The position numbers and the translations under genes are program-made. A stretch of DNA of 64,000 nt, from NCBI RefSeq assembly GCF_026151205.1, contig NC_087077.1, positions 12,064,983 to 12,128,982 on the forward strand, in the 5' to 3' direction. The notes beneath the pieces were generated by a model, which did not search any database, was not told the origin of the DNA, and saw only the letters and a list, made by a program, of their open reading frames with translations. The DNA is from Bolinopsis microptera (taxonomy: Eukaryota; Ctenophora; Tentaculata; Lobata; Bolinopsidae). Position 1 is the stretch's first letter. Each line of letters begins with the position of its first letter. Shown in pieces: positions 11,821 through 62,336 of this stretch.

Positions 11821-11949
11821 TGTTTTGAATCGTTGTGACAAGGTAAACGCAAGACTAAAAGCTAAAAGCTAAACCAAAACCAAAACCCAGGTAGTCATCC
11901 TGAATAGTATATCGGTTAATCATACAATAAATTACTAGAATATATAACA
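11821..11949 (-). repeat. 5' LTR of LTR element 1
   Basis: 129 bp, identical to the 3' LTR. On the minus strand it ends ACA, immediately followed by the gag ATG and primer-binding site. Confidence 0.93.
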
Positions 11950-17255: not shown

Positions 17256-18488
17256 TTCACTTCAGTACACTACATTACAATTACAGACACACGCAGTACA
17301 ATCAGAGACACACACTCGATACAAAGACAGACACAGGCACAAACACACAGAGTACACTTCAGTACAATCACAGACGCAGGCACAAAGACACATACAAGAA
17401 GAGCAGATTGAAGTACCTTCATTTGCAGATGTTGACGCATTGATCTGTGGGATATGTTCTTCAGTCTGTAACTGATCATCTGCTAGAACTGTCTCATCTG
17501 GATCAACCGGAGGAGTATCTTCCGGCAGGAGTCTGAGTGGGTCTATCGGGACAGCCATGGATCGCTCTCCGTACCTTGCTGAAATAAAGACAAAGGTCAA
17601 CGACGGATGTCGCATGTCAGTCCTGTAACTAAATGTAATGCAAAATAGTGAATAAATAATTTTTACATCTGAACGATTGTTCATTGATTCTTTGAATCTG
17701 TTCATTGATTCAAAGAATCAATGAACAAAAGTTCAGGATTTTACCTTCTGTTAAGCTGTTAGCACTGACTCTAGCCCCCTCTCCCTACAAAACGACCATA
17801 TCTCGGGCTGGAGCTTTCAACCGTCTTGCCTCAGCAGCCATCTAGCACAGTCGACCTGTCCTGTTAATTATGTGATCATCAAGTTACCAAATTTAATCCT
17901 TCAATATTCGAATAATTGATTATCAGACAAAACAGAGTTTAGAGCTCGACGTATGCTTCAGGGTTTCACACTGTGCTGTAATCAAACGCATGACTAAAAC
18001 CTCTTGCTACTATTACCAATGTTAGATAAACCCATATTGTTAAGGCGGTCAAATGATTTACCTGAGTTGATCGCGTCCATGAAAGGGTTCATCTGCGCTC
18101 TGTCCAGCTTGTTAATGTCCGCTCCAGCAGCCAGCAGTGCCTCCGCCTCCGTCACTTTCCCTGCTTTGCATGGCCAGTGAAGCGTAGAGCTCCCCTCTAA
18201 GCTCTGTGACGATCCGACGAAGGATCCAGATTCCCTTCTTTTCTCTTGAGATTGCTTCAATTCTTCCTGGAGTATGCGGATTACCATTTTTATACTTCCA
18301 TACAGGGCGCGTGAACAATCAGCAATGAATTATCAATTAATCAATCTAGTTTTTGAGTAAAAAGTCCACAGATTGTGATACATTGGATTTATTATTGGAA
18401 AAGACATGGCTTACCAAGTACCTTTTCATGTGCTTTTTGGAGGACAGGGATGACTTATTCCTGCGTGCCATTTCACCATAACTATCTG
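16201..18488 (-). CDS. Ankyrin-repeat-type protein, five exons, inside the TIR element
   Basis: Minus-strand exons, all joining in phase: 18488-18422 (ATG at 18471), 18294-18062, 17578-17417, 16730-16568, 16315-16201 (stop). The product from this ATG is 240 aa. Exon 2 carries an ankyrin-like repeat (STLHWPCKAGK..EAEALLAAGADIN) after a charged helix. Exon 3 is acidic and Pro-rich (PIDPLRLLPEDTPPVDPDE), exon 4 helical (ENAHSIINHLDRRG). The first exon also has a good acceptor just upstream (TTGCTGTTACAG), so earlier exons may exist beyond the nested LTR element. Ankyrin repeats bind partner proteins; no enzyme domain or transposase was seen. It could be a host gene captured by the transposon, or element-encoded. 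Confidence 0.6.
17194..17252 (+). repeat. (CA)n microsatellite
   Basis: About 29 CA dinucleotides, followed by degenerate CA-rich sequence to about 17400, in the ankyrin gene's third intron. Confidence 0.95.
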
Positions 18489-18561: not shown

Positions 18562-18690
18562 TGTTATAAATTGATACTATATTTTATATTTAGACTGATA
18601 ACTGATCACCTATTATATTTTGTAGGGTCTAGGTTTAGATCCTGATTCACGATTTCCCTGTTTCTCTTGTACCACGGCTAAGACGTTACA
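18562..18690 (+). repeat. 5' LTR of LTR element 2
   Basis: 129 bp, begins TGTTATAAATTG and ends GACGTTACA, directly followed by the gag ATG. Confidence 0.93.
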
Positions 18691-21600
18691 ATGGCGACGA
18701 GGATTATTGGACAGTTGGAACTCTTAACATCAGATGCAGATTGCAGAACATGGTTTGAGAGGTTTGAGTTGTTCGCTCAAGCCAATCAGCTATTCAGAGC
18801 GGTACCAGCAATACCGGAACTCGTTAATGACAACAGCAACGCTGCAGCAGTGGAAACAGCAAGGACGGATGCGCAGAATGCGACTCAAGGAAATACCGCA
18901 GTTTTCCTATCGTACTTGGACAGTGGCATGTATGGGCTAATCAAGAGTTTGAGCAACCCAGATGAAGTGAGATTGTGCACCTATGACACCCTGAAGAAGA
19001 GGTTAGTAGATCACTTGATGCCGCAACCTGCAATACATCTTCAGAGATATAAGTTTTCTTCCTGCAAACAAGTGAACGAGACAGTTGGTCAATACATCAA
19101 CAAACTGAAAACAATCGCAACCTTTTGTGACTTTGAGAACTTTCAGGAGAGAATGCTTGATCAATTTATTGCTGGAATGAAGAGTGTGAAAATGAAGAAA
19201 AGGCTGTTAGGGGAAGCCAACTTAACTTTTGAGAGAGCGGTAGAGTTAGCTTTAGCTGCTGAGAAGACAGAGGAGGAAGCAGCGCAGATGAACATGAGCG
19301 AGAGTGATGTTAACAGAGTATCATGGGAGAGACGGGAGCCGAACAAATTCAAAGCTTCAGTTGTATGTACGAGATGTACATTGAGTGGACACACTAAGGA
19401 CGACTGCAAAACTAAATGTTTCAAATGTAAGAAAACTGGACATATCAAGAAGAACTGTTATGTTGTGAAGAAAACTCACAATGTTGAAGAGCAGAGTGAA
19501 ATTGAGAGTCAGAGTCCAGATGTCAATAGTTCTTTGGAGTGGTCAGTGAGACACGTGAATGTGTCAGGTAACGTTACGGTGTCAGGTAATGTTATTGAAC
19601 CACTTGAAATTGGAATTGATAATGTTTTTTGTCAGAAACCAATGGTTAAAGTTACTATTAATGATGATATTTTTTTGAATATGGAGTTTGATAGTGGCAG
19701 TAGTGTGAGCGTAACAACGGTACAAGCTTTGTGTGAGAGTGCTCGTGTGAGTTCGTCAGTTGTGTATGATGCACTGGTAAAGACGAAGAACACTCTGAAA
19801 GTTGCCAACGGCGAGATTAAGTCTATACTCGGGAAGATGAAAGTTAAAGTGAATTTTAAAGGTAAATGTAGAGAGAACATGGAGCTGTATGTTGTGGAGG
19901 AACCGTTTCCGACTCTCTTTGGCAGAACTTGGATTCAAGTTTTCTGTGGTTACGATTGGTTGGAACAGCTATTCAATGGAAAAGACCGTGTTGTGTCTAA
20001 TGTACCCTCTAAATGTAGTAAGTTATGTAGTAGTGTAGTGAAGTGTGATCAGTCATGTAATTCTCAATGTTCAGTAGATGTTTTAGGTGAGATGAGAGGC
20101 GAGTCGTCTTGTGTAATGTCTGTTGTTGACAAAGACGAAGAGTCAAAGATTGGTAAAGACGAAGAGCCAAAGATTGACAAAGACCTTCAGAGTGAAGAAG
20201 GATACCCTCTCAACCAAGTCTCTGAAGGAATAGTAACTGAGAAGATGATCACGGATTACGTGGAAAGTTTAAAACACGACAAGATATTCAAACCTGGAAT
20301 TGGACAGATCAGTGGAGTCGAAGCTAAATTCACGCTGAAAGAAGAAGCTCAACCCGTATTCTTAAAGGCTAGGAACTTGCCGTATTCTCAACGAGAGAAA
20401 GTCAAGAATGAGTTGATGTCCTTGGTTGATCAGAATATCTTGGAGAAAGTTGAAAGCAGTACCTGGGCTACGCCTATAGTAGTTGTCGAGCGTGGGCCAA
20501 AGTTAAGGATATGCGGTGACTACAAAAGTACCCTCAACAAGCACCTAGAGACAAAGATGTATCCTTTACCGAGTACTGAAGAATGCTTTAATTCAATGGT
20601 TGGAGGACAGAAGTTTTCAGTTATCGATGTGAAGTCTGCTTACAATCATGTGAAAGTCAGAGAGAAGGACAAGAAGCTTACAGTGATAAACACTCATCTC
20701 GGTCTATTTCAATGGAATAGATTACCCTACGGTGTGTCAAGTAGTAGCGGTATCTTTCAGGAGACCATGGACAACACGTTGAAAAACATTGATAAAGTTT
20801 GCTGTAGGATCGATGATATTTTGATATCAGGAAAAGATGACCGGGAGCACTTGCAGAATCTTCAAGAGGTAATACGACGATTGCAGGAACGAGGATTTCG
20901 GTGTAACCGGGCTAAGTCCAAGTTTTTTCAGGACTCAGTTGTTTATTTAGGTCATCAGATATCAAGACATGGAATACAGCCAGTAAAATCCAAGGTGGCA
21001 GATTTGAAAGCAGCTCCAGCACCGACTAACCTGGCCGAACTAATTTCATTTCTGGGTGCGGTCAACTACTATCGTAGATACCTGCCCAACTTAAGTTCAG
21101 TTATTGAACCTCTAGATAGTTTGAGATCATCACCATGGAAATGGACCAAAAAGGAGGAAGTAGCATTCAAAGAATTAAAAGACATGCTCTGTTCTGATGC
21201 AGTGTTGACGCTGTATGATCCTAACAAGAAGTTGAAGCTTGACACTGATGCCAGCAGCAGAGGACTTGGAGCGGTGTTGAGTCACGTGGACAAAGAAGGA
21301 GAAAGACCGATCGAATACATATCACGAACTTTATCGAAAGCCGAGAAGAACTACAGTCAGATTGATCGTGAAGCCCTAGCTATAGTATGGGCGGTCACAA
21401 GATTTCATGTGTATTTGTGGGGAAATCATTTTGAGTTAGTGACGGACCACAAGCCATTAACATTTATTTTTGACCCAAAGAAGAAACTGCCAGAGATGGC
21501 CACAGCTAGAATAACTCGATATGGATTGACCTTAATGAGTTATCAGTATAGCATCAAGTACAGACCTACCAAAGATCATGCCAATTGTGATGTACTTTCT

Positions 21601-23082
21601 AGGCTGCCAGCGCCTACTAAACACAAGGAGGAGACCACTATTTATGACACAGTCCTCAAGGTCACGATGGAAGAAGCATTGTTAGATGCAGGACTAGTGG
21701 TCAGAGAAACGATGAAGGATCCGATTCTATCTCGTGTGTTTGCTTACACTATGGAGGGATGGCCAGCAAAACTAGACTGTACTAACGAAGAGATGAAAGA
21801 ATTTCAGAAAAGGAAGACCGAACTATCTACGGAGCAAGGATGCTTGATCTGGGGAAATCGAGTGGTAATACCTGTGAAACTGAGGCAGTCAGTGTTAGAC
21901 ATGTTGCACTTGACTCACTCAGGGGTTAGCGGTATGAAGACAATTGCGAGGAGCTATGTTTGGTGGCCTAATCTTAATCAAGACTTGGAGAACATGGTAA
22001 AGACATGTGTGGAATGTAACAAGTTTGGTAGATCAGCACCAGCTTTAACAGACCATCCGTGGTGCCGACCCACTGGACCATACCAGCGCATCCACATGGA
22101 CTTTGCAGGACTATTCCAGGGACACATGTGGTTACTTGTTCAGGACGCCTACTCTAAGTGGCCTGACATTGTTAAGATGAACTCAACGAAAACAGGAGCA
22201 CTGATTACAGTTCTAAGACACATATTTGCTAGAACTGGGTTACCATGTGTCGTTGTATCAGACAACGGACCCCAGTTTACTTCAGAGGAACTCAGAGTTT
22301 TCTTCAAGCAAAACGGAATAAGACACATTCCAACACCGACATACCACCCTAAATCTAATAGCATCGCAGAGAGACTGGTACAATCGTTCAAGAATTCTAT
22401 GAAAAAGATGTGGAATGACTCTAAAGACTTGGACAAGAATCTCAATAATTTCTTGTTAACTTACAGGAACACTCCGCACGCAACCACAGGTCAGACACCA
22501 GCAATCATGATGTACAATCGGACATTAAGATCTAAGTTACACATGCTCACGCCGCATGACAAGGAGAAAGTGGAAAACTTGCAAGCTGACAAACAAGAGC
22601 AAGTGTTGCAGAGCAATCCTAGAATATTTTGTCCAAAGCAGCCAGTACGTGTCCAGATTGATGGAAAAGAATGGAGACCAGCCACAGTAGTGCGAAGACT
22701 GGGCGAATCATCCAACACATATGATATTGAGCATGAAGGACGCATCATCAGGAAGCATGCTGATCACATTCAAAGCCTGAGAAGACCTATTATCTCTCTT
22801 CAACAAGATAACGTATCTGACAAAGACCCTGTTTCAGTGAGAGGTGAGACAGTGAGTGAGCAGCAGGATGTTAGTCCGTTAGTTGAACCTGGTATAGTTG
22901 ACCCTGATATTGAACTGCCAGATAATTTACGAGATAATAATGATGAACCTTCTGAGATTGATATTAGAGATGACGTTATTGCTAGACAGCAAACTGATGA
23001 TGAAAATGTTAATGTTAGAAGAGCAAATCTGAGAGATGTACCTCGGGTAAATTACAAAATGTTAAACAGATATGGCAAGTAA
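18691..23082 (+). CDS. Gag-pol polyprotein of LTR element 2
   Basis: A 1463-aa single frame starting at the first base after the LTR. Domains: gag (about 1-215), two CCHC knuckles (CTRC..H..C, CFKC..H..C, about 225-258), protease (FDSGSS, about 335), a spacer with repeated acidic words (KDEES, KDEEP), RT (YPLPSTEECF, VIDVKSAYN, LPYGVSSSSG, RIDDIL), RNase H (LDTDASS, IVWAVTRFHVYL, TDHKPL), integrase zinc region (H..H..C..C) and DDE core (HMDFAG, VSDNGPQ, NSIAERL). The ORF ends 309 bp before the 3' LTR. No inactivating change was seen. As in element 1, Arg replaces the usual Tyr at the RT active site. Confidence 0.95.
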   Translation: MATRIIGQLELLTSDADCRTWFERFELFAQANQLFRAVPAIPELVNDNSNAAAVETARTDAQNATQGNTAVFLSYLDSGMYGLIKSLSNPDEVRLCTYDTLKKRLVDHLMPQPAIHLQRYKFSSCKQVNETVGQYINKLKTIATFCDFENFQERMLDQFIAGMKSVKMKKRLLGEANLTFERAVELALAAEKTEEEAAQMNMSESDVNRVSWERREPNKFKASVVCTRCTLSGHTKDDCKTKCFKCKKTGHIKKNCYVVKKTHNVEEQSEIESQSPDVNSSLEWSVRHVNVSGNVTVSGNVIEPLEIGIDNVFCQKPMVKVTINDDIFLNMEFDSGSSVSVTTVQALCESARVSSSVVYDALVKTKNTLKVANGEIKSILGKMKVKVNFKGKCRENMELYVVEEPFPTLFGRTWIQVFCGYDWLEQLFNGKDRVVSNVPSKCSKLCSSVVKCDQSCNSQCSVDVLGEMRGESSCVMSVVDKDEESKIGKDEEPKIDKDLQSEEGYPLNQVSEGIVTEKMITDYVESLKHDKIFKPGIGQISGVEAKFTLKEEAQPVFLKARNLPYSQREKVKNELMSLVDQNILEKVESSTWATPIVVVERGPKLRICGDYKSTLNKHLETKMYPLPSTEECFNSMVGGQKFSVIDVKSAYNHVKVREKDKKLTVINTHLGLFQWNRLPYGVSSSSGIFQETMDNTLKNIDKVCCRIDDILISGKDDREHLQNLQEVIRRLQERGFRCNRAKSKFFQDSVVYLGHQISRHGIQPVKSKVADLKAAPAPTNLAELISFLGAVNYYRRYLPNLSSVIEPLDSLRSSPWKWTKKEEVAFKELKDMLCSDAVLTLYDPNKKLKLDTDASSRGLGAVLSHVDKEGERPIEYISRTLSKAEKNYSQIDREALAIVWAVTRFHVYLWGNHFELVTDHKPLTFIFDPKKKLPEMATARITRYGLTLMSYQYSIKYRPTKDHANCDVLSRLPAPTKHKEETTIYDTVLKVTMEEALLDAGLVVRETMKDPILSRVFAYTMEGWPAKLDCTNEEMKEFQKRKTELSTEQGCLIWGNRVVIPVKLRQSVLDMLHLTHSGVSGMKTIARSYVWWPNLNQDLENMVKTCVECNKFGRSAPALTDHPWCRPTGPYQRIHMDFAGLFQGHMWLLVQDAYSKWPDIVKMNSTKTGALITVLRHIFARTGLPCVVVSDNGPQFTSEELRVFFKQNGIRHIPTPTYHPKSNSIAERLVQSFKNSMKKMWNDSKDLDKNLNNFLLTYRNTPHATTGQTPAIMMYNRTLRSKLHMLTPHDKEKVENLQADKQEQVLQSNPRIFCPKQPVRVQIDGKEWRPATVVRRLGESSNTYDIEHEGRIIRKHADHIQSLRRPIISLQQDNVSDKDPVSVRGETVSEQQDVSPLVEPGIVDPDIELPDNLRDNNDEPSEIDIRDDVIARQQTDDENVNVRRANLRDVPRVNYKMLNRYGK
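18692..18702 (+). promoter_or_regulatory. Primer-binding site of LTR element 2, overlapping the gag start
   Basis: TGGCGACGAGG lies one base after the LTR end. It matches, over 11 bases, the complement of an animal tRNA-Ser(GCT) 3' end with CCA. Its first base is the T of the ATG. Confidence 0.8.
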
Positions 23083-43758: not shown

Positions 43759-46700
43759 ATGTCGAACTCTGCACGTGTTGGTACGCGCATCAGCACACGT
43801 GTAAACAAGTTAGCGGCACGCAAAGTAACAGACAGGGACGCCGTCCAGCAGATATGTGACCAGCCAGCTGCCCGAAAATTCATGAGCTGGCTAGATACCG
43901 TCCTCCAGGTAAATCTGCTCAATTTTATTTGAATACCTGATAAAATTAGAGCCGGACCAAATTAATTTGTTCCGAGAAATCTTCAATTTACATAAAGATT
44001 TTGAGCGGATATTTATAATGCAAGATCCACCAGTCTTTACTGAACTTGACATTTAAAATTTGCTAATTAACAGTTTGCTAATTTTTAAATAATAGTGTAT
44101 TAATTTGATAATTGCTAGTTTACTAATTCTTTAAATGCTAATTTACTAATTTGTTAAGTGCTAATTCACTAATTCAGTTAATTGACTACAGGAGGAGACT
44201 CTAACAGAAGTGGAGTATGAGAAGTACGAGGAGATGTGTACTAGTGAGATAGACGACCTGTTCGCTGAGGAGGACGTTAAACTGCCCAGGTTATTGCTCA
44301 TTAGTTGACTGTTAAGTGTAGAACCGTTGGGCCAGGTGGAATCGCGTAATTTGCAGTAAATATTATGCATTTTTGTGTATTTATGCGATAAAAATGAGGA
44401 AAGATGCGGAATTGTGTAACTGCGGTTATGTACCGCTCACAGAGGACGCCTCTTGATATAATATCTTCATTGGCCATTACTTAAGTGTTATTCGTAATTT
44501 CGTATACATACTGTAGATTGTTTTTTGTTTCAAAAAGTTGACGAGATTAATCTGTAATAAATATTTACTGCAATTAAGCGCATGGGAACCAAGTATGAGC
44601 ACTAAACAAAGAAGACGCTGGAATGTTTAACTGAATCTAAAAAGCAAATAACAATACACACACATTGACATACTATCTGCATTCTGCAAACTGTAACGGC
44701 AAACATCCGTCAGAGCGATAATATGTACGTATAATTATAACTTATAACTTAAAATATGCATCAGCTAGAGCTTTATCCGTCTAGAAATTTCTCTGGAAAT
44801 AGTAACATAATACATAATAAAAGCTAAAATAGCTTAATTTGTGGTTCCTAGCTCCTTCCCCTGCTTACATGTACATTCCTAAATACCAGGTTACGAAGTG
44901 AGAAGTCAGGCCTGGAAGCGGAAGTAGCAGCACTACAGCAGGAACTGCTGGAATGTCAGGACAGCGAGAAAGTTTTCAGCAGACAGTACAACATTTTGTC
45001 TGGTAATTATTAGTTTAAGTGCTGATAATTGATTAATCGTTTTTTTATTATTTAGCAAGCAGCAAAAGGACAGAAAGAAGTTGGAACTAAGCAACAGATT
45101 ATTTAAACTAATTTTTACCACCGAACATCATCAAAAATCAAAAACTGAAAGCATAGTTTTTAACCTGTAATCAATTGACTGAATAGTTCCAGCCTACTGT
45201 ATGTCCCCTGCCCTGTCTTCAGGTGCACACTGCAAAGTCTCTATGTTCCTGACCTCGTCTTCAGGTGCACACTGTACAGTCTTTATGTTCCTGACCTCGT
45301 CTTCAGGTGCACACTGAACAGTCTCTATGTTCCTGACCTCGTCTTCAGGTGCACACTGTACAGTCTTTATGTTCCTGACCTCGTCTTCAGGTGCACACTG
45401 AACAGTCTCTATAGCTCTATGTTCCTGGCCTCGTCTTCAGGTGCACACTGAACAGTCTTTATGTTCCTGACCTCGTCTTCAGGTGCACACTGAACAGTCT
45501 CTATGTTCCTGACCTCTTCTTCAGTTGCACACTGTAAAGTCTTTATGTTCCTGACCTCGTCTTCAGGTGCACACTTCTCAGTCTCTATGTTCCTGACCTA
45601 GTCTTCAGGTGCACACTTCTCAGTCTCTATGTTCCTGACCTAGTCTTCAGGTGCACACTGCACAGTGCACAGTCTCTATGTTCCTGACCTCGTTTTCAGG
45701 TGCACACTGAACAGTCTCTATGTTCCTGACCTCGTCTTCAGGTGCACACTGCGCAGTCTCTATGTTCCTGACATCGTCTTCAGGCTCACACTGCGCAGTC
45801 GTCATGTTCCTGACATCGTCTTCAGGCTCACACTGCGCAGTCGTCATGTTCCTGACCTCGTCTCCAGGTTCACACTGCACAGTCTCTATGTTCCTGAACA
45901 TCTCGAGATGACTAGATTCTTGGTTATCCCTGATCATGTTTACCAACCATCTCCATCTTGCCCATATGCAATCAACAGCCTTTTTGTATCGGTCACTATA
46001 GAATACGGGATTCAAGAAACTGTTGACGGGGATGACCACTAGAGCGAAAACCTCGAAGACTGAAGGTGGTGCTGATTGTTTGGGGAAGAACGCGTAGTAG
46101 ACTGTTGCCATGATGAAGAGTATCCAGGCTATGAGTTGACTTCCGATCATCAGAACTACTTTTAGTGTTAGAGATTTTGTAATATCCGCCTTTTGATCTC
46201 CTACACCGCCGGCCCTCTGGCCCCCCTGTGCCAATTGTGCTTGTCGTAGAGCCGCGACACGTACTTTACTCTTTCTATCTTCCAGCAATATATTGGTGTA
46301 TGTAACAAGTACTGTGACCAACATGTTGCAACAGCAGTGCCAGAGTTATGCAGTAGAGAAGTTTGTAGATCTGATAAGATTCCTGGTGTTTGAAGATGTT
46401 GTGAACACATAATCCGATGTTGCCGTAGTAGCCTATCTCCTCACTATCGAACATGCTTCCCTTGGAAGTCGTGTTTCTGAGCTTTTCAAGCATTGTGTTT
46501 GTGTTACTTTCCATGGCGAATGCACCGTGGTACATTCTCGTAATTCTTGACATGTTGATAGGGTTCTTGCTGAAAAATGGATTTTCATCAAGATTAGTGA
46601 AGAATATTTCCGTCCTAAAAATATCCTGTACGTCAGAAATTGGTAGGAGCGGAAGAATAGCATGAGCTACATTTAGGAGAAGACCTAAAGCGGATCCTAA

Positions 46701-49700
46701 GACAATCCATCTTGTTTTTATATCACAAACCATACTGGTGCAATTCAGCCATCTGATCACACTGACAAATGCGACCGTTAACAAGGAACCATGAGAGGAT
46801 ACAGAGAAGAGCACACCAAAAATAGAGCACAAGATGCTGACTCGCCACTTTCTCTCCAACAAGCAGTAGTCGCCTTTGAATCGGAGCATTGTTGCGGCTA
46901 TGACGATACAGCACAGATACACTCCCATCAGCAAATCGAAAAAGAATATTTGGAGACGAAAAATTCTGTCAATTTGACCGGTCTTTGAATTCATTTGGGA
47001 GCGATAGCATTTGTATCCCTCTACAGAGTTGATGATGACGATGAAGAGCCCCATGAAAATTGTGACTACTAGAACCGGTATGGATTGAATAAGGAACTTG
47101 GAGGAGGACACAAATCCGTGATCACATGTCCCACATTCATCACTACCGTCAGCACAATCCTTCACATGATCACATACTTTGACAGGATCAATCCACACTG
47201 ATGTTGAGTTTGGGCTGCAATAGAACCTGCCCGGACATCCAATTTCATCTGCCCCATTTTCACAGTCTTGCTTTTCATCACACAATGCTGTCACGTGGAA
47301 AGACTCCGTTCCAGATCTAAATGGATCTTTCTCACAGTTGAAAACAAAGTCCGCCTCTGACCACATATCCCAAAATATATGGTCACAAAATTTTACCCAA
47401 TTTTCCACCACGAAATCTGTCTCGTCAGTGCAATTATATTTGCAATAAGATTGTATGGAACTAACAGGATGTTCATGCACTAATTTCATAAATGACTTCC
47501 GGTTATGTCTGTATTGTCTTTCCAGACACGAGTACAAGGGACTAAGTTTATTTCCCTCCTTAATCCGATTCCGAACAGCCTCACATTTATCAGCGTCACT
47601 CTTATCTGAAATAATGCATTTAAAACGAGTTAACTTGGTATCCAGGCCTTCGCACGTCTGCCAAACAGCAGGCAAACAAATAGGAGTGCTGCTGATTAGC
47701 GGGCAAAAAATCTTGATAACATCTTCACAGTAACACTCATCAGACCCATCAATGCAGTCCCGGGTACCATCACATAGACCGTCGAACGAGATGCAGCCTG
47801 AGCCGTCAAAGCAGTAGAAAACTTCAGTCAAGTTATTTTTGCAGCTACACTCATCAGTGAGGCACTGAGACACTCCATCACAGACGTTGTTATCAGCCAG
47901 AGCACAGGTCCATTCTGCATCTTCATCATTTGCTGCCAGGACTACCTCTTCGACATAGAATCTATCGATGACATTGACGTGGTAAGGCCAAGGGTCGAAG
48001 TTGAACCGACAGATGGTGGCACTATTTCCTATTTCTTGGGTTACCCCTTGTATAATATCTTCCAGCAGGAATCTGGCATATTGGTAGCAGTTTGACAATA
48101 TGCTCTCTCGGTCTTTGGCTAGAATAAGAAAGCTGAGAAATGAAGGCTCTCCGGCGACCTTCCTAAAATCAACTGCAAACTCTTTCCCCTGAGGACTAGT
48201 ACCCGGAACTTGGGATGGACAGAGCGTCAGAAGAAGCGGCAAGAAGGCACGCCAAAATGAGATATACCTCATTTTCCCTCTATTCAAGTGTACCTGGGTT
48301 GACTTACTTGAGAGAACAGCTGGGTTGACTTACTTGAGAGAACTGAAAAGGGCTGAGGATCAGGAGGACTGCTTCTACCGAAAAATGTCCACCTTTTATA
48401 CGCTAATTTGTGTCGCTGTAGCGAATGGCCGTGATCGAACTCTAAGAGATATCGTCGAAAGAAATTGATGCCTTCATTTTGTCGGAGCTTAATTATTGTT
48501 ACCTGGGGACCCCAGGCTATTATGTTCATTTAAACATATAAAGATCGGCGGAATGACAGACTGATCGCGGGACAGTAAAAATATTGTAGTGTACTGAATT
48601 GGCTGCACAGAGGTCACGCTATTGATTTCTGCCAATAGAATGAAGTCGTGTCAGGGCTCTCGTGACAGATCGTGATTGTAGATACTTGTTATGTTAATGA
48701 GCAGCAATTGTTTCCTGGGCATCCACTTACTAAATATTGGGAGAACAGACAAAGTCTTCAACTTCATTACTTTCTAGTCGAAATTTATACTATAATTCGA
48801 AAGATTTATAATATGCATGGCAAATAAAGGTAAATTCGGTAAAAAGCAAAAGATTGAATATTAACCATGGTAACGGCGTTGGAACGCGCACGTGCACGTG
48901 CAATGCTTTTTGGGACGGCATTTTGATCGGTTTTGTGATAATTATGTTGTGTTTAAAGTTTTTTTACATTTAAATCGGCTGTATCTTCGGTTGGAATGGA
49001 TATTTTTGGATGCGATTAAACCTGTTTCAAAGAATACCACTAGCTTCCTCCTTGTTACCACGGGCTTTCTAGTTAATATTATAATTCGAAAGAGATTCTC
49101 TTTGTATGTCTGTCTGTAAGACCGCCCACGTGTAAATTAGGTAAACAAATACAAGTTGCGTACTAACCATGGTAATTGGTAACGGTGTTGAAACGCGCAC
49201 GCGCAAAGATTTGCGAACGACATTTTGATCGGTTTTGTGGTAATTACGTTGTATTTCGTGCTAGCAACATTTTAATTGGCTGTATTTTTGGTTGCTGATT
49301 TTTTGATGCGATAAAAACTTACTATCAAAGAATACTATTAGCTTCCTCCCTGTGACCATGGACTTTCTAGTAAATATATAAATTAGTAAAGTATATAGTA
49401 ATTAAGCTAATAATCTAATAATCAGATCGTGATCAGAAAGTGAGAGAAACAGCGGGGAGATGCGGTTCCAGGTTAGGAGATGAAAATAATCTAAACACTG
49501 CCGCTGCTAGCAAGGTCCTCCAACACAGGTGGGGCTACATTTAAAAACTATCTTAATAATCGATTGGGGGGGGGGGGGGGGGGATCAACCTCATAAATAC
49601 CTATTATTCCCTCCGATTTCAAAATAGGTATAGGTATTCATGTATATTTATGAGGTTGATGCCCCCCCCCCCCCCCCAAATCAATTACTTAATTAACTAT

Positions 49701-52700
49701 TAATTAACTCTGTATGCATACAATGATAACAAATCTGTCTGTATAAGTTCTTAAATTACAAATTTGCAAGGTTCGAGAAGCAGTTAGAAGCACTGGACAC
49801 AGTTATCAGGAATCACATCAAACTCCACCAAGAAGACCAAGGTGCTGCCAATTTTCTCGCTTCTTTTCCGTTCGAGGATTACATAGAGACAGAGCTGGAC
49901 TTTACTAAAGCTTTGGGAAAGTACGCCGAGAAGCTATTCTTTCCCGGTATTAACCGAGTTCATGGAAACCCTCGGGATTGCGCTCTGGTGGGAACGGATG
50001 GGGAGGATAAAGAGAATTCAAGACGGTCACTTACCGGGAATTATAGGTACACTCCTTATAGGTACACTCCTTAACCTGATGTTTGTGTGGGATGACCTGG
50101 GCACTGTTATACTACTATATCATTAAGTTCTAGTAGTAAACTTCTGGGGGGGGGGGGGGGGGGGGGGGGGGGATCAGGTACCAAGTGCCGTACGTGACGT
50201 CGACTAAGTGCAATTTTGGAATTTTTCAAAAGATCCACCCACCCCCTTCGCGCTACTAACTGTTTCTCCGGATAATTATAAAGACACTCACCCCTTTTGC
50301 CGGCTTTTGTGGTACTAACTGTTGAGAAATCACGGTACTAACTACTAACTGTGCCTTGGTATATAAAATAAGATACCCACCCATAAATTGCTTTAAACAG
50401 CTCATTAAACATTGGAAATGGGCAAATTATACCCACTATTTAGTAGGGGTTTTGTTTTCAATGTACGGTAGTCGAATTAGATAAAAAGTTACAAACAAAT
50501 TTTAAAAATTACAAAAACCAAAAAAACCTCAAAACCCATTACCAAAATTGAAATTTGAGGTAAAATGGGTTTTTTGGGGTTGGACACCCCCTTTAGTACC
50601 ATGTACTAAATGTTTTTCTGGGAAATAAGCAGCAGACCAACCACTTAGTAAGTACTAACTGTGTTTTGGAAGAAAATATGACCCACCACCACAACGTCAC
50701 GTACGATTCTGACCTTATGATCCCCCCCCCCCCCCCCCCCCCCGAAACTTTAGGGCTTACATTATAATTAATCTATACCTAGACAACATCTTCAGGAAAG
50801 TCTAAATACAAGGCTATGTTGACTAATTAACTAGACAAAATCTTCAGGAAAGTACGGGATACTGTTCGCAGAGTAAAAAGCACATATTTGGAGAGACAAG
50901 AAGAGACAATAGCAGAGACAGTGAATATGGCCGCCAGTCAGGCCAAGATAGAAGCTCTGAAATCACTTATAGTGGACTTGACGGGAGACAAATATCCGAA
51001 GGATGAAGAAACACTGAATACAATGGCACAAGAGTACAGCATAGCGTGTATCAGAAAAGAGGATGATGTAAGAAAAACGTTCTAAAATTATCGACGTTAT
51101 CATTTATAGCTTGTTGGTGTCGGAGAAACATTTGATATATTGCTTATTCTTATATTATTATTATGTAAAATATTAATTTAACATTGGCCAATTAAGTAAG
51201 TACTAATTAAGGTAGTACTCTGAAATTGTATTACTCCTCGCAGATAAAGATGCTGTGGCACACTGAGTGTGTACCCCTTATGAATCAGCTGAAGAATTTA
51301 CTAGACGTTTCTATCTTGTGTGGTAATCCTATTTCATATAATTAGATTTGTTTATATTTATAGTTAATCATTTGGAGGCCGTACGGTATCATTTCTGTTC
51401 ATACCAGAAATTTCAATTACGATGTAGAGGTGAGCAATAATTGCCTTTAGGCTTTTCCTAGTTTCAAAGAAACCTCGATTGAAAAATAAAATCATTCTGT
51501 CTCAGGAAACTATAAATTGAAGCTGGCCAGACAGAACTACTTTATATCAAGACAAGACAAAATAATAGATAACCTGCTGTCTCAGCTCTCACGACAAGAG
51601 TTGTTACAGTTAATGTTGGAACACGAACACAGGTAACGTGACGTCACATCATATGTGCCATGACGTCATAATCATAAAACGTAATGGCAGCACATCACCA
51701 CTGCTGCCTCGATAGTTTATAGGTAAAATGTGGAATTATTTTCAAAACTTCACATATATGTATAACCTTCGACCACGTACTACATTATCAGTTATCACGT
51801 GGTACATTAAAGGAGTCGTTAAGATATTACGTAATCAACCGAGGAGGAGGGGGGTTTCCAAATCATAACGCTACTGATTACGGACGGGGGGGGGGGGGGG
51901 GGGGGGATTGTTTAAAAAAGTGATTACGAAATGTGTGAACGACCCCTTATGTCCCACACCATTAAATTGACGGGAACACAGGACACACAAAGAGAGCGTG
52001 GATCTACTACAAGAAGTCTTAGGTCATGTGTCTCTGCTAAACAGGACTATGACACAACAGCGTTCCTTGGTAAACGGAGACGACGCTGTCCGCCCTGTCA
52101 AGGTAACGAGCTGATCTCAACTTTACTATTAGCAGTAATTCCAAGTTCAATCAGATTACCCCTCCGTTTATCAGATGATAACACTGAACAACACTACTTT
52201 TACTACATGTCACTGAACAATACCACACATTCCGATCCAGGTAAACAAGCTGTGTCTGTGTCCCAACGACAAGACCCTCAACTCCACGATAACAATGTTA
52301 CGGACCTACCTTAAACAAGACTCTCACAACATCTTCCACACGTTCGAGGACCTAGCTGGAGCTATCAGCGCTCTGGTTAAAGAGGTGGGGGAAGCGAAGG
52401 AGGACTCGTCTGTTGCGACCAGCACTGTTTCTAATATAACAGCGTCTCTGGTGAGTTCTTTAATTATAGCTGATTTGTTGACTGAGTAATGGAGGTATTT
52501 AGAAATAGGGTACCGTGTAGTGATTCATGATTTTCGTGGAATATCAAGATGTTAACTCAAGCATATTTTACTTATCAAGTTATTACATCAGGATCAGGAC
52601 TTGTCAGGATGTGCTAAGTGTATAGATAAAGGTTTCACCAGCACAACCCACGAAGAAGACAGACTTGGTAAAGAAATAGAGGAGCTCGAACACCTGGCCT

Positions 52701-52837
52701 CCAGTCTCAGGGACAATTTCAGTAGTAAGACTGAGGCTATTAAGAGTAGTGATACGGTGGGCGTGGCAAGGAAACTCTTTGTCTGGTTCTTCACTGATCC
52801 CACTAAGTTGAATGAGATTCTTCATGGTGAATTTTGA
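43759..52837 (+). CDS. HAUS3: HAUS augmin-like complex subunit 3
   Basis: Eleven exons, every junction in phase: 43759-43908, 44192-44289, 44890-45002, 49426-49471, 49771-50046, 50848-51067, 51244-51322, 51506-51632, 51982-52102, 52241-52450, 52592-52837. The product is 561 aa (human HAUS3 is 603). HAUS3 belongs to augmin, which recruits gamma-tubulin to spindle microtubules to nucleate new ones. Matching segments include the N-terminal FMSWLDTVLQ, DFTKALGKYAEKLFFPGI, KLKLARQNYFISRQD, and the C-terminal RKLFVWFFTDPTKLNEIL. Most of the rest is coiled coil. Exon 4 is only 46 bp and was placed by phase. Intron 3 (4.4 kb) contains a GPCR gene on the other strand; introns 4 to 6 and 8 carry small TIR elements. 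Confidence 0.9.
45199..45896 (-). repeat. 42-bp minisatellite forming the GPCR C-terminal tail
   Basis: About 16-17 head-to-tail copies of a 42-bp unit. On the minus strand, the first six or so code for a 14-residue repeat (RNIETVQCAPEDEV-like). A ~10-bp irregularity near 45655 shifts the frame to a stop at 45647, leaving about ten more copies outside the ORF. Confidence 0.92.
45647..48272 (-). pseudogene. LDLa-repeat rhodopsin-type GPCR with a frame break
   Basis: Minus strand, intronless, inside HAUS3 intron 3. ATG at 48272 begins a signal peptide (MRYISFWRAFLPLLLTL). The long ectodomain holds about four LDL-receptor class A modules (for example DGLCDGTRDCIDGSDEC and KVCDHVKDCADGSDEC). A seven-helix region follows (from LIQSIPVLVVTIFMGLF) with NSFLNPVFY matching the NPxxY motif of helix 7. 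At about 46318-46325, between LLLQH and MLVTV inside one helix, the frame shifts by one base; both frames clearly belong to one receptor. It may be a pseudogene or a sequencing indel. LDLa GPCRs (such as molluscan GRL101 and relaxin receptors) bind secreted peptides or lipoproteins; the ligand here is unknown. The tail is a 14-aa tandem repeat. Confidence 0.82.
48864..49380 (+). repeat. Diverged tandem duplication, ~300-bp unit
   Basis: Two related copies starting at AACCATGGTAA (48864 and 49166), sharing blocks such as CATTTTGATCGGTTTTGTG and AGCTTCCTCC. It lies in HAUS3 intron 3, upstream of the GPCR start. Confidence 0.7.
49566..49677. mobile_element. 112-bp TIR element with G-run ends
   Basis: G-run then ATCAACCTCATAAATA; the right end carries the complement before a C-run. 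AATCGATT at the left and AATCAATT one base past the right end are probable 8-bp target duplications with one change. Lies in HAUS3 intron 4. Confidence 0.75.
50146..50743. mobile_element. 598-bp TIR element with G-run ends
   Basis: A run of 27 G, then ATCAGGTACC...CGTACGTGACGT; the right end has ACGTCACGTACG...GATC and a run of about 22 C. Flanks AAACTTCT and AAACTTTA are possible imperfect target duplications. Lies in HAUS3 intron 5, just before exon 6. Confidence 0.65.
51809..51950. mobile_element. ~140-bp MITE in HAUS3 intron 8
   Basis: Ends AAGGAGTCGTTAAGATATTA and, as complement, AAGGGGTCGTTCACACATTT, both continuing into CGTAATCA. It contains a G-run and lies 30 bp before exon 9. Confidence 0.65.
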
Positions 52838-53424
52838 AATTAAGTGGAGAATAAATTAAATCCGACAAAGAGAAAGTGAAACTTGCATCAAAGAATGGAT
52901 GTCGTTACGGTCTAGTACAGCAGACTTACACCTATCAAAGCTTGCATCTCTCCATAAATACAGCTATACACAGTTTACAGTGTACACTGTACAGTATACA
53001 TTTTAATTAATGTTTGTTTTGGTAAGGGTTGAATATTTCGAAGGTTTTCTAATGTAAGTAGCGCACATTTTTATATAATGTAAAGAGTTTATTTGACACT
53101 GTTTTTATAATTTGATAATTAATTTAATATTTAATACACAATATACACATGACATTATATTATGCAAATATAAGTGTTACTTCATATTTTATTAATCTGT
53201 GCATAGCTATGCTCATTTCGTGCATTTCAATGAATATTGACTCTTAATAAAACAGCGTTTAAACTTGAATCCTATTGGTTCTTATCCTTTTTAAAAATCT
53301 CTCGCGAAGCTTTTTATAATTAATGATCCCAGAAACCTTTGTGACCACATAAACCCAATAGTAGTGTGTGATGTAGTGTTAGAGATGTTGATCAAGAGAA
53401 GACGGTGTTAGAGCTCCCTAAAAT
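52838..53424. other. Intergenic between HAUS3 and the PIX gene
   Basis: AT-rich; AATAAA-like words after the HAUS3 stop (AATAAATT near 52851, AATAAAAC near 53246) could serve polyadenylation. The PIX promoter should lie at its right end. Confidence 0.45.
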
Positions 53425-56400
53425 ATGTTGTCCGAGCAGGATATTGAGAAATGGCTAGAAGAATTAGGTACTGATATATTATTGTTATTAACTAATTGTT
53501 AACTTTTGACTTTTGACAAACCTTACCACAATTGACGCCATGTTATGACCTCACACCTGCACCACGTGTTATGACCTCACACCACGTGTTATGACCTCAC
53601 ACCACGTGTTATGACGTCATGTTCCCAAGGTGTACTGATAGGATACGAACTACACCGCATAGCAGCGGGAGAGGAGACGGCTCTTCAACAGATTCTCAAG
53701 GACGGGATCGTCTGTTGCAGAATAGTGAATTGTATCATTCCTAATAAAATACCCAAAGTTAGAATAATTACATATTTGTTGACTTATCGTTGAGACTTGC
53801 AGCTAACGTCCCATTGCTTCATAGAGTCCAAAAAGGAAATAACACAAAAATAAAAATACGTTTCAATTAACGAAATGAGAGGCTATGAATCGGTAAAAGG
53901 TCAGAAACACGTGCCTTACTTCTTGTTTGTTGCAGGTAACAGCTGACAAGTCTGCGGATGGGTTCAGAGAAAACTTCAATTACTTCACCACTGCCCTTAC
54001 TGAACTTGGGGTCAACCCGGTAGGTTTAATATCTTTTGAGTTTAATATAACAATAATACGCATTTTCAATTGTTGATGTATTTGGTCTGAAAATACTGTG
54101 ACTGGATAAGAAATAGTGACAGTTAACACTATAAACTGTTAATAGTTAATATTAATAACTATTAATAATAGCGTAGTGCCCAATTTACCGCGTCGTATAT
54201 ACTGTATGTCCACCCTATACAGTTCACAGTTCCACGATAATAGAGCCTGACCAGAGAGTTATGTGTGTCAGGCTAAAGGCTCGTGGGAACAAGAAACTGT
54301 GTTTAACACCGATGTTAGGTGCATTTTGTACCTATCTAGCGATATAAACACACAATTTTATAATAGAATCTTTAAATAATAAGTATACCTCTATAATACA
54401 GGATGTATAACACAATCTGTATTAATTTTAGGATCTACTTTTTATTTAACACCGAATTGTTTCCTCAGTTGTGTAGAAGTGAAGATGTGATGGACGCTGT
54501 AGAGCAGGTCCAGGAGTGTATAACAGCTCTCAAATCCTTTGCAGCCAGTAAGATATTATAATAACAGCTCTCAAATCCTTTGCAGCCAGTAAGATGTTAT
54601 AATAACAGCTCTCAAATCCTTTGCAGCCAGTAAGATATTATAATAACAGCTCTCAAATCCTTTGCAGCCAGTAAGATATTATAATAACAGCTCTCAAATC
54701 CTTTGCAGCCAGTAAGATATTATAATAACAGCTCTCAAATCCTTTGCAGCCAGTAAGATATTATAATAACAGCTCTCAAATCCTTTGCAGCCAGTAAGAT
54801 GTTATAATAACAGCTCTCAAATCCTTTGCAGCCAGTAAGATATTATAATAACAGCTCTCAAATCCTTTGCAGCCAGTAAGATATTATAATAACAGCTCTC
54901 AAATCCTTTGCAGCCAGTAAGATATTATAATAACAGCTCTCAAATCCTTTGCAGCCAGTAAGATATTATAATAACAGCTCTCAAATCCTTTGCAGCCAGT
55001 AAGATATTATAATAACAGCTCTCAAATCCTTTGCAGCCAGTAAGATATTATAATAACAGCTCTCAAATCCTTTGCAGCCAGTAAGATATTATAATAAGTT
55101 AACAAATATAATATTATTACGATTACTTCAGCTTCAAAGTATACGCATCATGTTTGAGATTAAATTCAGAAAATGTATTATTATGCAGAAATACCTTATT
55201 GAGACAAACATCGGCTACGAAAATTCTTTCAGCTGTATGATACATAATAAAGAGAGAAATAAAACTTAATTTAAGTTAGACGAGTTACTGCTAGTAATAT
55301 AAACTATTAGTTATAATATCACCTTCACTTGTTCAACACCCAGATCGCAACACCAAGAAGTACGACGAGTCATTTGGACCTGACTTTAAGGGTTCCGACG
55401 GGAAGGCTCTCACTGTAATGGCTACTTTCGATTACGAGGCTCAGAACATGGACGAACTTACTTTTGCTAAAGGTAAAACTTTAGATATTATTTAACTTAA
55501 TTTAAATATAAGATATTATATAACTTAATTTGTGATGAAGTTCTTGATTGCAATACCGGATGTTTTGTTGCCACCTTTTTTAAATTTAATAATTATTATT
55601 TTTGCTGCTATTAATAGTAGCAGCAGTACTTGAGATCGCGTGTTGAAATATAACATTAATTACTTCATAAGTTTCCACTGTCCAAGCATTGCATTTGATA
55701 GGCTGTTTTAAAGTAATCTTTAACAAACAGCAATAACACCCATGACCCAGGTTCTATAATAACAATAACACCCAGGTTCTATAATAACAATAACACCCAG
55801 GTTCTATAATAACAATAACACCCAGGTTCTTTAATAACAATAACACCCAGGTTCTGTAATAACGGTAACACCCAGGTTCTGTAATAACAATAACACCCAG
55901 GTTCTGTAATAACAATAACACCCAGGTTCTATAATAACGGTAACACGGGCAGGTTCTATAATAACAATAACACCCAGGTTCTAAAATAACAATAACACGG
56001 ACAGGTTCTATAATAACTATAACACCCAGGTTCTATAATAACAATAACACGGACAGGTTCTATAATAACAATAACACCCAGGTTCTATAATAACGGTAAC
56101 GCAGATGGTGGACGGTGGTTGGTGGGAGGGTGAACTAGATGGAGATACCGGCTGGTTCCCTAGCAACTTTGTAAAAGAGTTCGGAGTCATGGATACCGGT
56201 TAGTTAGCAGCCCTCTGTCATAGAACAATAAACTTAAGTTGATTACCCCCCCCCCCCTGTTCACAGTTCCACGACAATAGAGCCTGACCAGAGAGTTATG
56301 TGTGTCAGGCTAAAGGCTCGTGGGAACAAGAAACTGTGTTTAACACCGATGTTAGGTGCATTTTGTACCTATCTAGCGATATAAACACACATTACATAAC

Positions 56401-57029
56401 TATATAGTGAAAATCCTGCGCACTTTTCCGCTTACAAAAGCCAGAAGTATCAAAATGTAAAATAATGTTCATAATTAATGCTCTTAAAACATTTTCCCGA
56501 ACTTGATCACACCAAAAAATCCCCCAGGACACACAGTAACAAAGCGGGTGTCAGCTGTCCCGGTGGACATCAACCCAAATGACTACGAGTTCTACAAGAC
56601 AGTTGTACAGGATATTATCGACTCAGAGAAGGAGTATCTTGGAGACATTAAGAACCTGACTGACAGTCTTCTGGTGTCCCTGAGACGCGCTAAAAAGTGA
56701 GACAATTGCTTTATTTCTTTATTCAATACTTTTTTTTTGAGATTACAGTGAGTGTCACTTATTTTAATATTTTAGGAGAACTCCGCTATCAGTCATTTTG
56801 CAGAGAACTTTTGATTTTATATTTTACCTCTTTAAAAAATGCTTCACACTTCTTCATAGTAGTCATAATTTACTATATAATCGGTATAATCGTCGTGTTT
56901 AACTGCTCACATCCACTAAATACCTATTATCAGGTTAAAACCAAGTGACGTGGAGGTAGTGTGTAGATACACAGCCGAACTAAAGATGCTACACACTCAA
57001 CTACTACAGAGTTTATCTACTCAGCAAAG
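53425..57029 (+). CDS. ARHGEF7: PIX-type Rho GEF (ARHGEF6/7 homologue), 3' part not in view
   Basis: Eight exons in phase: 53425-53467, 53630-53757, 53936-54019, 54469-54547, 55344-55472, 56082-56198, 56528-56696, 56934-57029 (ends in phase 2). They give 281 residues in PIX order: calponin-homology-like domain ([32 protein letters not shown]), SH3 ([20 protein letters not shown], then [20 protein letters not shown]) and the start of the DH domain ([20 protein letters not shown]). PIX proteins activate Rac/Cdc42 and tie PAK and GIT to focal adhesions through SH3. The rest of DH, PH and GIT-binding regions were not found before 64000, so either they lie beyond, with the MFS gene nested in an intron, or this copy is truncated. 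Exon 6 starts at 56082, inside the last copy of a repeat array. Confidence 0.85.
53566..53617 (+). repeat. 21-bp repeat (CCACGTGTTATGACCTCACA), three copies
   Basis: Short tandem repeat at the end of PIX intron 1, with a CACGTG core in each unit; it ends 12 bases before exon 2. Confidence 0.85.
54229..54354 (+). ncRNA. Candidate H/ACA snoRNA, PIX intron 3
   Basis: Fits hairpin-hinge-hairpin-tail. Hairpin 1: outer stem GTTCCACGA / TCGTGGGAAC, internal loop, upper stem AGCCTGAC / GTCAGGCT. The H box ACAAGA (fits ANANNA) starts at 54289, 14 nt after the upper stem. Hairpin 2: outer stem TGTGTTTA / TAAACACA, internal loop, upper stem TAGGTGC / GTACCTA with an ATTTT loop. An ACA lies 13-15 nt after it. 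Same strand as the host gene and within an intron, as for most animal H/ACA RNAs. The target of its pseudouridylation pockets was not identified. Confidence 0.7.
54517..55097 (+). repeat. 41-bp minisatellite copying the PIX exon 4 splice donor
   Basis: About 14 copies. The first unit includes the last ~25 coding bases of exon 4 (ATAACAGCTCTCAAATCCTT) and its donor (A|GTAAGAT). All later copies repeat exon end plus donor in the intron. Confidence 0.93.
55738..56106 (+). repeat. 25-bp minisatellite copying the PIX exon 6 splice acceptor
   Basis: About 14 copies of CCCAGGTTCTATAATAACAA-TAACA. Exon 6 starts after the CCCAG of the last copy, so each copy carries an acceptor-like AG and the first bases of the exon. 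Confidence 0.9.
56266..56391 (+). ncRNA. Candidate H/ACA snoRNA, PIX intron 6 (copy 2)
   Basis: Same 126 nt as 54229-54354 with a single change seen (T to C, just after the ACGA of the first stem, in the left pocket). Both stems, the H box and the ACA are kept. Similarity stops within a few bases of the predicted RNA ends, so the duplicated unit is the RNA itself. Confidence 0.7.
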
Positions 57030-58015
57030 GTAATGTTTTTACAAGAAGCAGATAAATATTAAGGGGACATACACTAAAACCGTTTTATTTATGATTTGGC
57101 CGAGGATTTGACTTCATATTCGGAAAATATAGATAAAAACAATATTTATGAAATAATATTTGAAAAAAAAAAAAAAATCTTAAATAATTTTCTAGCTCGA
57201 ACAAAAGACTTCTGATAGGGTGTAAAATAACTTCTACTGACTTATTCTTATATAAGTTACTAGGAATAAACATATCATCGTTACACTTATATTATTATTA
57301 GTATTATGAATAGATAATTGCTATGTATACGAGCCTCTTCAAATATAACTCGCCGACTCTGTGTTTTTCCATCTGCTTTGTTTTGTACTGTTCGGCAGGA
57401 TGCTCCGTTCATCAAGTTAGGTTGAGAAATAATAATAATTCAAACCCCACGAGGGGTAATGGTTAACTTCTCCATGTTACGTTAAAAAAATGAAATATAA
57501 ATAAATTCTAACATTTATTACACGCCTCGATATTAAAATATACCCAACAATATGTTCAAGCGAGACTTAGTATGGAAAAAATCAAGATCATGCGCTCCTA
57601 TCCTTTTTCTACAACCTTGTATTGCTAAAAATAGCGAGTTTTTAACTCCATATTTGCAAGCTAAAATTGATCAGGACGAAGGGTCTGTTTTTGGTAGATT
57701 TTCAGTGTTTTTTTGCACTGTGGAGATTTCGTCAAGTTTAAAATATAATATTGAGATCATGAAAATTTCGATTTCTCAACAATTTCCCGGTAAATCAAGA
57801 ACATTTCCCGGTACAATCGCGATTTAGCGTACCGAGCATACCCACTTTTTAAAAGGTAATTATATTGCCATAATTTATCATATAATTGTGTTTTCAATTT
57901 GATTTATAATATTTCTCCGGATTAACGGAAATAATTTAAACACGGTCTCCCTGAGTCGCGTATAATCAACCTAAAAAGAGTTATTAATTAAAATCGTCCA
58001 ACATTTGTTCACTTT
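57030..58015. other. No gene recognised
   Basis: AT-rich stretch between the last visible PIX exon and the end of the MFS gene. One 91-aa frame (57552-57827) shows no domain or splice logic. Confidence 0.45.
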
Positions 58016-61534: not shown

Positions 61535-62336
61535 GGGGGTGATGCAACGTCAATTAATGTCAGTATTCCATAAAAACCCCAAACTGACATTGACATTAAT
61601 TGACATTAATTGACATTAATTGACATTAATTGACATTAATTGACATTAATTGACATTAATTTGTCTTGAAATTTGAGATTATCATTATTCGATAAATATT
61701 CAAGATATTCACGTCTATGTAAGTTAGACCGGTTCAAAAAAACAAAATGTCCTTGAATAATTATGAGTATGTTCTTATCTGTTGATCCTTAGGTTCAAAG
61801 ACCACAAAAAAAAATGTCAGCTTCCAACTCTTCCATCTTCGGTCCCCACCGGCCACGCCCATATTTTATTGGTTTCTTATACAGGTAAAATATCTAGAAT
61901 CGGCTTTTTTAGTATGAAGGAGTAATGTTAGCTGTTTAAGATTCGTTATTCAAATATAAATGTCATGAAGGCATTTCGTTTAATGTGGGTTTTAAGTTCT
62001 GATGATGTTGAGAACCACGCCCTTGGATGGCCACGCCCATTTAAGAAAATTAAATTTCGGGAAACCGTATTATTTTAGTTTTATTGTTTAATGATCTGAA
62101 TTTTTTTCACATTTCACATTTCCATATGTGATAGTAGTGAATAAATTGATGATATAAACGTTCTAAAGTGCTAAAAATATGGTAGAACTACATAATCTCT
62201 GGTCGAAAAATATCGTGTCAATTAATGTCAGTATTCCAAAATTTTGCAAAACTGACATTGACATTAATTGACATTAATTGACATTAATTGACATTAATTG
62301 ACATTAATTGACATTAATTGACGTTGCATTCCCCCC
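61535..62336. mobile_element. 802-bp TIR element with G-run ends
   Basis: Left end GGGGGTGATGCAACGTCAAT and right end, as complement, GGGGGGAATGCAACGTCAAT. Perfect 8-bp target duplication ATAACGTC (61527-61534 and 62337-62344). Subterminal decamer TTGACATTAA repeated about eight times at 61595-61660 and about six at 62255-62325. No coding capacity. Confidence 0.92.

Follow-up and report, generated by a model that had tools for sequence, protein, structure and literature searches.

Introduction

Tandem repeats that span exon-intron borders are known from lancelets as 'mirages', where they have been described in Branchiostoma in the genes Adh3 and TnC and in those of the globins Gb6 and Gb9 (PMC3087553). 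The Adh (Canestro 2002) and TnC (Yuasa 1998) mirages are considered here as cited by PMC3087553 and PMC3902484. Units of 10-72 bp are given for Adh3 and of 150-160 bp for the globins, and both 5' and 3' borders are affected (PMC3087553). The lancelet arrays are reported to be compatible with regular splicing (PMC3087553, PMC3902484), and in the account of PGBD5 the authors omit the splice-site repeats from the reconstructed protein (PMC3902484). The traits of mirages given in these published accounts include a cephalochordate host and variation in copy number, somatic variation included. In the open-licence PMC literature, no mirages were found outside lancelets; an earthworm paper describes duplications of a fourth exon which are absent from the transcript.

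We analysed a stretch of 64,000 nucleotides (hereafter, the window) containing a PIX (ARHGEF6/7-like) gene in which two minisatellites coincide with splice junctions. We consider it likely that both arrays are mirages, or splice-junction minisatellites, which would have grown by tandem duplication and would be tolerated via their exon-side copies.

Results

Domain matches point to a PIX gene

The gene model, whose exon borders were read by eye, comprises eight exons encoding 278 residues without a stop; all seven introns are GT-AG (Table 1). Pfam analysis of the predicted protein returned SH3 (1.3e-15) and CH (1.4e-08) domains, together with a RhoGEF match (1e-04) that covers profile positions 1-63 of 180 only and lies below the cut-off (23.0 bits against 27.6). 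The last residue of the CH match, residue 110, lies one or two residues before the exon 4 junction formed by the first donor. A search for PDB sequence matches, using as query an early model from which five exon 2 residues were absent, returned the SH3 domains of ARHGEF7 and ARHGEF6 as its best five matches and intersectin-1, matched over SH3 and DH, as the sixth. The PIX identity put forward in the original prediction was borne out: the CH-SH3-RhoGEF order (RhoGEF remaining below its cut-off) fits PIX, and the SH3 is of the PIX type.

The remainder of RhoGEF and the PH domain were not found downstream in the window, where four plus-strand fragments were searched with Pfam and others were read by eye; the four fragments gave a single match, unrelated and below the cut-off. 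Of the DH-PH and GIT-binding region expected in a complete PIX, the part located was thus RhoGEF profile positions 1-63. This could be taken to mean that PIX is a decaying pseudogene and that the arrays lie there without constraint. Such decay is very improbable, as the eight exons form an open frame interrupted by seven GT-AG introns, the SH3 match is strong and the exons that were not found may be located outside the window. An MFS gene (Pfam) is located downstream of PIX on the opposite strand, and a HAUS3-like neighbour of PIX matched the Pfam family HAUS-augmin3 at 1.5e-05, below the cut-off.

Table 1 Features of the PIX locus, with positions in the window (a slash within a motif marks the splice border)
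Feature	Position	Strand	Description and basis
PIX (ARHGEF6/7-like), exons 1-8	53425..57029	+	CH, SH3 and first third of RhoGEF; Pfam and PDB sequence matches
3 x 20-bp array, intron 1	53560..53619	+	Ends 10 nt before exon 2
Exon 4 (79 nt)	54469..54547	+	End of CH domain; gene model, CH match
Array 1	54520..55097	+	41-bp unit, made of the last 28 nt of exon 4 and the first 13 nt of intron 4; donor A/GTAAGA
First donor GT of 14 (productive)	54548..54549	+	Sole donor with a stop-free product
Exon 5 (129 nt)	55344..55472	+	Start of SH3 domain; gene model, SH3 alignment
Two-copy 28-bp duplication (86% alike)	55476..55531	+	Starts just past the exon 5 donor, whose GT is just outside the repeat
Array 2	55745..56094	+	25/27-bp unit, 13.8 copies; acceptor and first nucleotides of exon 6
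Last acceptor AG of 14 (productive)	56080..56081	+	Sole open-frame acceptor; gapless SH3 alignment to human beta-PIX over the joint
Exon 6 (117 nt)	56082..56198	+	Remainder of SH3 domain; gene model, SH3 alignment

Both arrays repeat an exon-intron border

Tandem Repeats Finder and unit-by-unit reading showed that the two junction minisatellites originally described are real. Array 1 consists of 14 units, every one exactly 41 bp long, plus a 4-bp partial copy (14.1 copies with 99% matches by the program), and its 14 GT donors lie at positions 54548 + 41k. The sole variation is an A or a G at a single position, G being found in units 2 and 7 only, and the five-unit gap separating these two units would be consistent with several units having been duplicated together. 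At the repeat joint the sequence is ATATTATA-ATAA-CAGCTC, and its ATAA is shared by GTGT-ATAA-CAGC on the exon side and TATA-ATAA-GTTA on the intron side; this fits a 4-bp microhomology between exon 4 and intron 4.

Array 2 was found by the same program as a 25-bp unit with 90% matches. It contains 14 CAG/GTTCT sites (55748-56081), mostly in the context CACCCAG/GTTCT, with the last AG base running from 55750 to 56081 and the first exonic base from 55751 to 56082. The 25-bp unit originally proposed holds for ten of the spacings between these sites, the other three being 27 bp. The copy adjoining exon 6 differs from every inner copy at 2 to 6 of 23 positions. A 4-bp overlap, TAAC, could have founded this array; it is compatible with copies 5 and 8 only, and is a less certain founding overlap because most copies read AATAACAATAAC. 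The 25-bp units contain AG/GT, in which GTTCTA makes a poor donor as judged by eye. The units of both arrays have TATAATAACA in common, a likeness noticed post hoc; random windows of the contig share at least 10 letters in 0.46% of pairs.

Comparison of the unit sequences with the gene model confirmed that the arrays copy PIX's own exon 4 donor and exon 6 acceptor, and the unit of each array spans an exon-intron border. The arrays stood as described, with their limits corrected to a start at 54520 for array 1 and to 55745-56094 for array 2; exon 6 starts at 56082. The near-uniformity of array 1 would also be expected if a short duplication had been misassembled and its copy number inflated, and one lancelet mirage is said to have been aberrantly assembled in a draft genome (PMC3087553). 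We nevertheless regard an assembly artefact as highly unlikely, since the copies of array 2 carry several distinct variants and are spaced at both 25 and 27 bp, and since the variant base of array 1 is confined to two of its units.

A 133-bp element occurs at 54222-54354 and 56259-56391, in PIX introns 3 and 6, the two copies being 99% identical, in the same orientation and bracketing both arrays. Its first copy has a strong predicted RNA fold (z -4.9). An Rfam search of this element gave one match, far below the cut-off; the window gave no Rfam match, and a tRNA search of the window found none. Exact-match scans of a prokaryote contig collection, with a repeat word and with part of the 41-bp unit, and of a viral contig collection, with a repeat word, gave no match; these collections have no bearing on an animal host.

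Position and unit length of the arrays

A chance origin of the repeats themselves was rejected on the basis of Tandem Repeats Finder and the unit-by-unit reading. Their position was assessed with 11 arrays (units of at least 8 bp, at least 5 copies), hand-merged from 57 repeat-finder rows, and with 25 known plus-strand junctions. When the 11 arrays were placed at random, at least two fell on the known junctions in 0.6% of trials, or in 11% when 75 further random junctions were added. Leaving out a 331-bp array reduced these values to 0.2% and 2.9%, respectively. A random start within the gene-dense region 49700-57000 covers a junction in 13% (41-bp) and 8% (25-bp) of cases. The junction position of the arrays is less striking than the repeats themselves.

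Three hand-picked arrays in open frames have unit lengths of 42, 30 and 24, all divisible by three, whereas the 41 and 25 of the junction arrays are not. This contrast is anecdotal because mechanical open frames likewise contain a 43-bp array (17264-17392).

Further repeats were observed elsewhere in the window. A 42-bp array of about 16 copies (45207-45897) lies at the 3' end of an apparent minus-strand receptor gene, and a portion of the array reads through as a 14-residue repeat within a 232-aa open frame (45647-46345); LDL-receptor class A domains lie in a separate overlapping frame (46275-48329), joined to the 232-aa frame by eye only. Two perfect 10-bp arrays (61589-61661 and 62257-62322), both with the unit ATTGACATTA, start about 670 bp apart. 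By eye, 49568-49678 and 50146-50745 appear to be inverted repeats ending in G and C runs, similar to small mobile elements whose termini are homopolymers, and the open frames 7501-11868 (1455 aa) and 18682-23082 (1466 aa) look like Gypsy-type retroelement polyproteins.

A single donor-acceptor pair keeps the frame

As originally predicted, units of 41 and 25 bp shift the reading frame. The accompanying statement that only particular copies keep the frame was right about the restriction and overstated the choice, which comes down to one donor and one acceptor: when all 14 x 14 combinations were tested, 1 of the 196 pairs was open through exon 8, namely donor 1 with acceptor 14. Donors 2-14 of array 1 all led to a stop at one identical place. 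The 13 acceptors of array 2 other than the last all led to an early stop, and these included acceptors 2, 5, 8 and 9, where the length added is divisible by three. When the last acceptor was used, the predicted SH3 domain aligned to that of human beta-PIX with 31 of 58 residues identical, and the alignment was gapless over the exon 5/6 joint, where the human sequence reads SKG/DVIHVTR. Since every other donor and acceptor leads to a stop, the arrays would behave as intron.

With one open pair in 196, a one-step splice choice yields no protein variety and was rejected as a source of protein diversity. The original prediction had left it open whether the arrays generate or tolerate splice-site choice; of the two, toleration is favoured.

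Inner copies rival the productive copies in score

Splice sites were scored with a small weight matrix built from 12 introns of PIX and its HAUS3-like neighbour; the donor set omitted intron 4 and the acceptor set intron 5, which left 11 sites each. The array 1 donor scored 7.6 bits, and its copies ranked 8-21 of the 205 GT in 53400-57100. Five PIX donors, the array donor among them, were found among the best 25 matches listed (6.9-8.5 bits), and the real PIX donors at 53468 and 53758 were absent from these best 25 of 205. Some decoy GTs, three of them inside array 2, scored above the array donor.

The productive last acceptor scored 9.3 bits (rank 8 of 245 AG), the seven PIX acceptors spanning 8.3-11.3 bits with six of the seven in the training set of the matrix. 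The acceptors of array 2 ranged from 1.2 to 9.8 bits; ten of the 14 scored at least 6.8, nine of these being inner copies, and three inner acceptors (9.8, 9.6 and 9.4) scored above the productive copy. Because inner copies rival the productive ones, site strength does not explain which splice sites would be chosen.

The same scores bear on stepwise splicing within array 1, in which donor 1 would be joined to the TTTGCAG/CCA acceptor of unit k and a 3-nt CCA exon would be left ahead of the following donor, each step adding one Thr and keeping the frame. All 13 simulated routes were open, each with one additional Thr, and the joints between the units of array 1 contain 13 occurrences of TAATAAC, a word resembling a branch point. 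Splicing in such steps is nevertheless extremely unlikely. The CAG/CCA acceptor scored -0.8 bits, and the four of its 14 copies that are among those listed ranked 125-128 of 245 AG; this poor score weakens the case for mini-introns of 38 nt and CCA exons. The intron nearest by would measure merely 38 nt, and 3-nt exons are poorly recognised.

GAA, GAG, GGA and AGA words act as splicing enhancers. The exon bodies adjoining the productive copies contain nine of these words in 51 nt on the exon 4 side and 13 in 94 nt on the exon 6 side, compared with one in the 41-bp and none in the 25-bp repeat unit. Exon definition aided by words of this type would be the favoured mechanism for an exon-side choice. 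By reasoning, a nearest-pair rule would take the last donor and the first acceptor, the wrong ones, and this counts against the exon-side reading.

Discussion

How the arrays would have arisen and be tolerated

We infer that a short tandem duplication over each exon-intron border founded a unit with a splice site, joined at ATAA in array 1, and that slippage or unequal exchange then expanded the founding units. Expansion was probably more recent in array 1, given 99% matches against 90% in array 2. Growth of the arrays would have been tolerated because the exon-adjoining copy still works. The spliceosome would most likely define the exons by their bodies, taking the first donor and the last acceptor, and both arrays would as a result be removed as intron sequence. 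Several lines of evidence lead to the mirage reading: the anatomy of the arrays, a productive pair out of 196 that is made of the exon-side copies, the gapless SH3 alignment, the site scores, the word content and the ATAA microhomology.

Compatible with a mirage would be a splicing rheostat, in which transcripts using inner copies stop early and are destroyed, so that the number of copies sets PIX dosage and differs by allele. All 14 donors have a single core sequence in common, the scores of nine of the 13 inner acceptors lie between 6.8 and 9.8 with the productive acceptor at 9.3, and every inner copy leads to a premature stop. In addition, two haplotypes of the lancelet globin Gb6 are described, one with 6 units and the other with 3 (PMC3087553). 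We consider such a rheostat unlikely, as lancelet mirages are reported to occur without aberrant mRNAs (PMC3902484). It is quite improbable that the arrays form a copy-number-tuned splicing fuse in a lineage outside lancelets, in which inner copies compete and run into stops and PIX output drops as the arrays grow.

Under the mirage reading, PIX presents a natural contest in which the spliceosome chooses among near-identical sites, 14 per border, with the exon-side copy as the only productive one; the productive choice would be the reverse of the nearest-pair rule. Junction minisatellites can occupy two borders in one conserved signalling gene. A host other than a lancelet would extend the range over which mirages are known.

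Comparison with known systems

Two models of intron change resemble the PIX arrays in part. In intron gain by tandem genomic duplication (the Rogers model, PMC3443670), a short duplication makes a new GT and a new AG, and the units of array 2 likewise contain AG/GT; the PIX sites that were duplicated, however, were already a splice junction. Human internal tandem repeats are similar in that expansion of a border minisatellite may form novel introns, and differ in that they concern paralogs in segmental duplications (PMC2812944). For 66% of the human intron changes, a transcript retaining the repeat in an exon is also reported (PMC2812944); in PIX such a transcript would carry a stop.

The amplification of two junctions in one gene, originally called unusual, has a precedent in lancelet PGBD5, where two arrays, of 60-bp and 108-bp repeats, lie at the splice sites of two exons (PMC3902484). 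The PGBD5 copies are fewer than those of PIX and imperfect, and their number depends on the assembly, with 2 or 7 copies of 60 bp and 3 or 6 copies of 108 bp (PMC3902484).

The PIX arrays look like a further example of the mirages known from lancelets. In both arrays, as in the lancelet mirages, a minisatellite unit spans an exon-intron border (PMC3087553), and the exon 6 copy of array 2 seems to escape homogenisation as edge copies do in lancelet Gb6 (PMC3087553). Regular splicing is backed by RT-PCR in the lancelet (PMC3087553), whereas that of PIX is predicted from its sequence. The PIX arrays further differ from the lancelet mirages (PMC3087553) in their gene and possibly in their host, and in that two borders of one gene carry 14 copies apiece.
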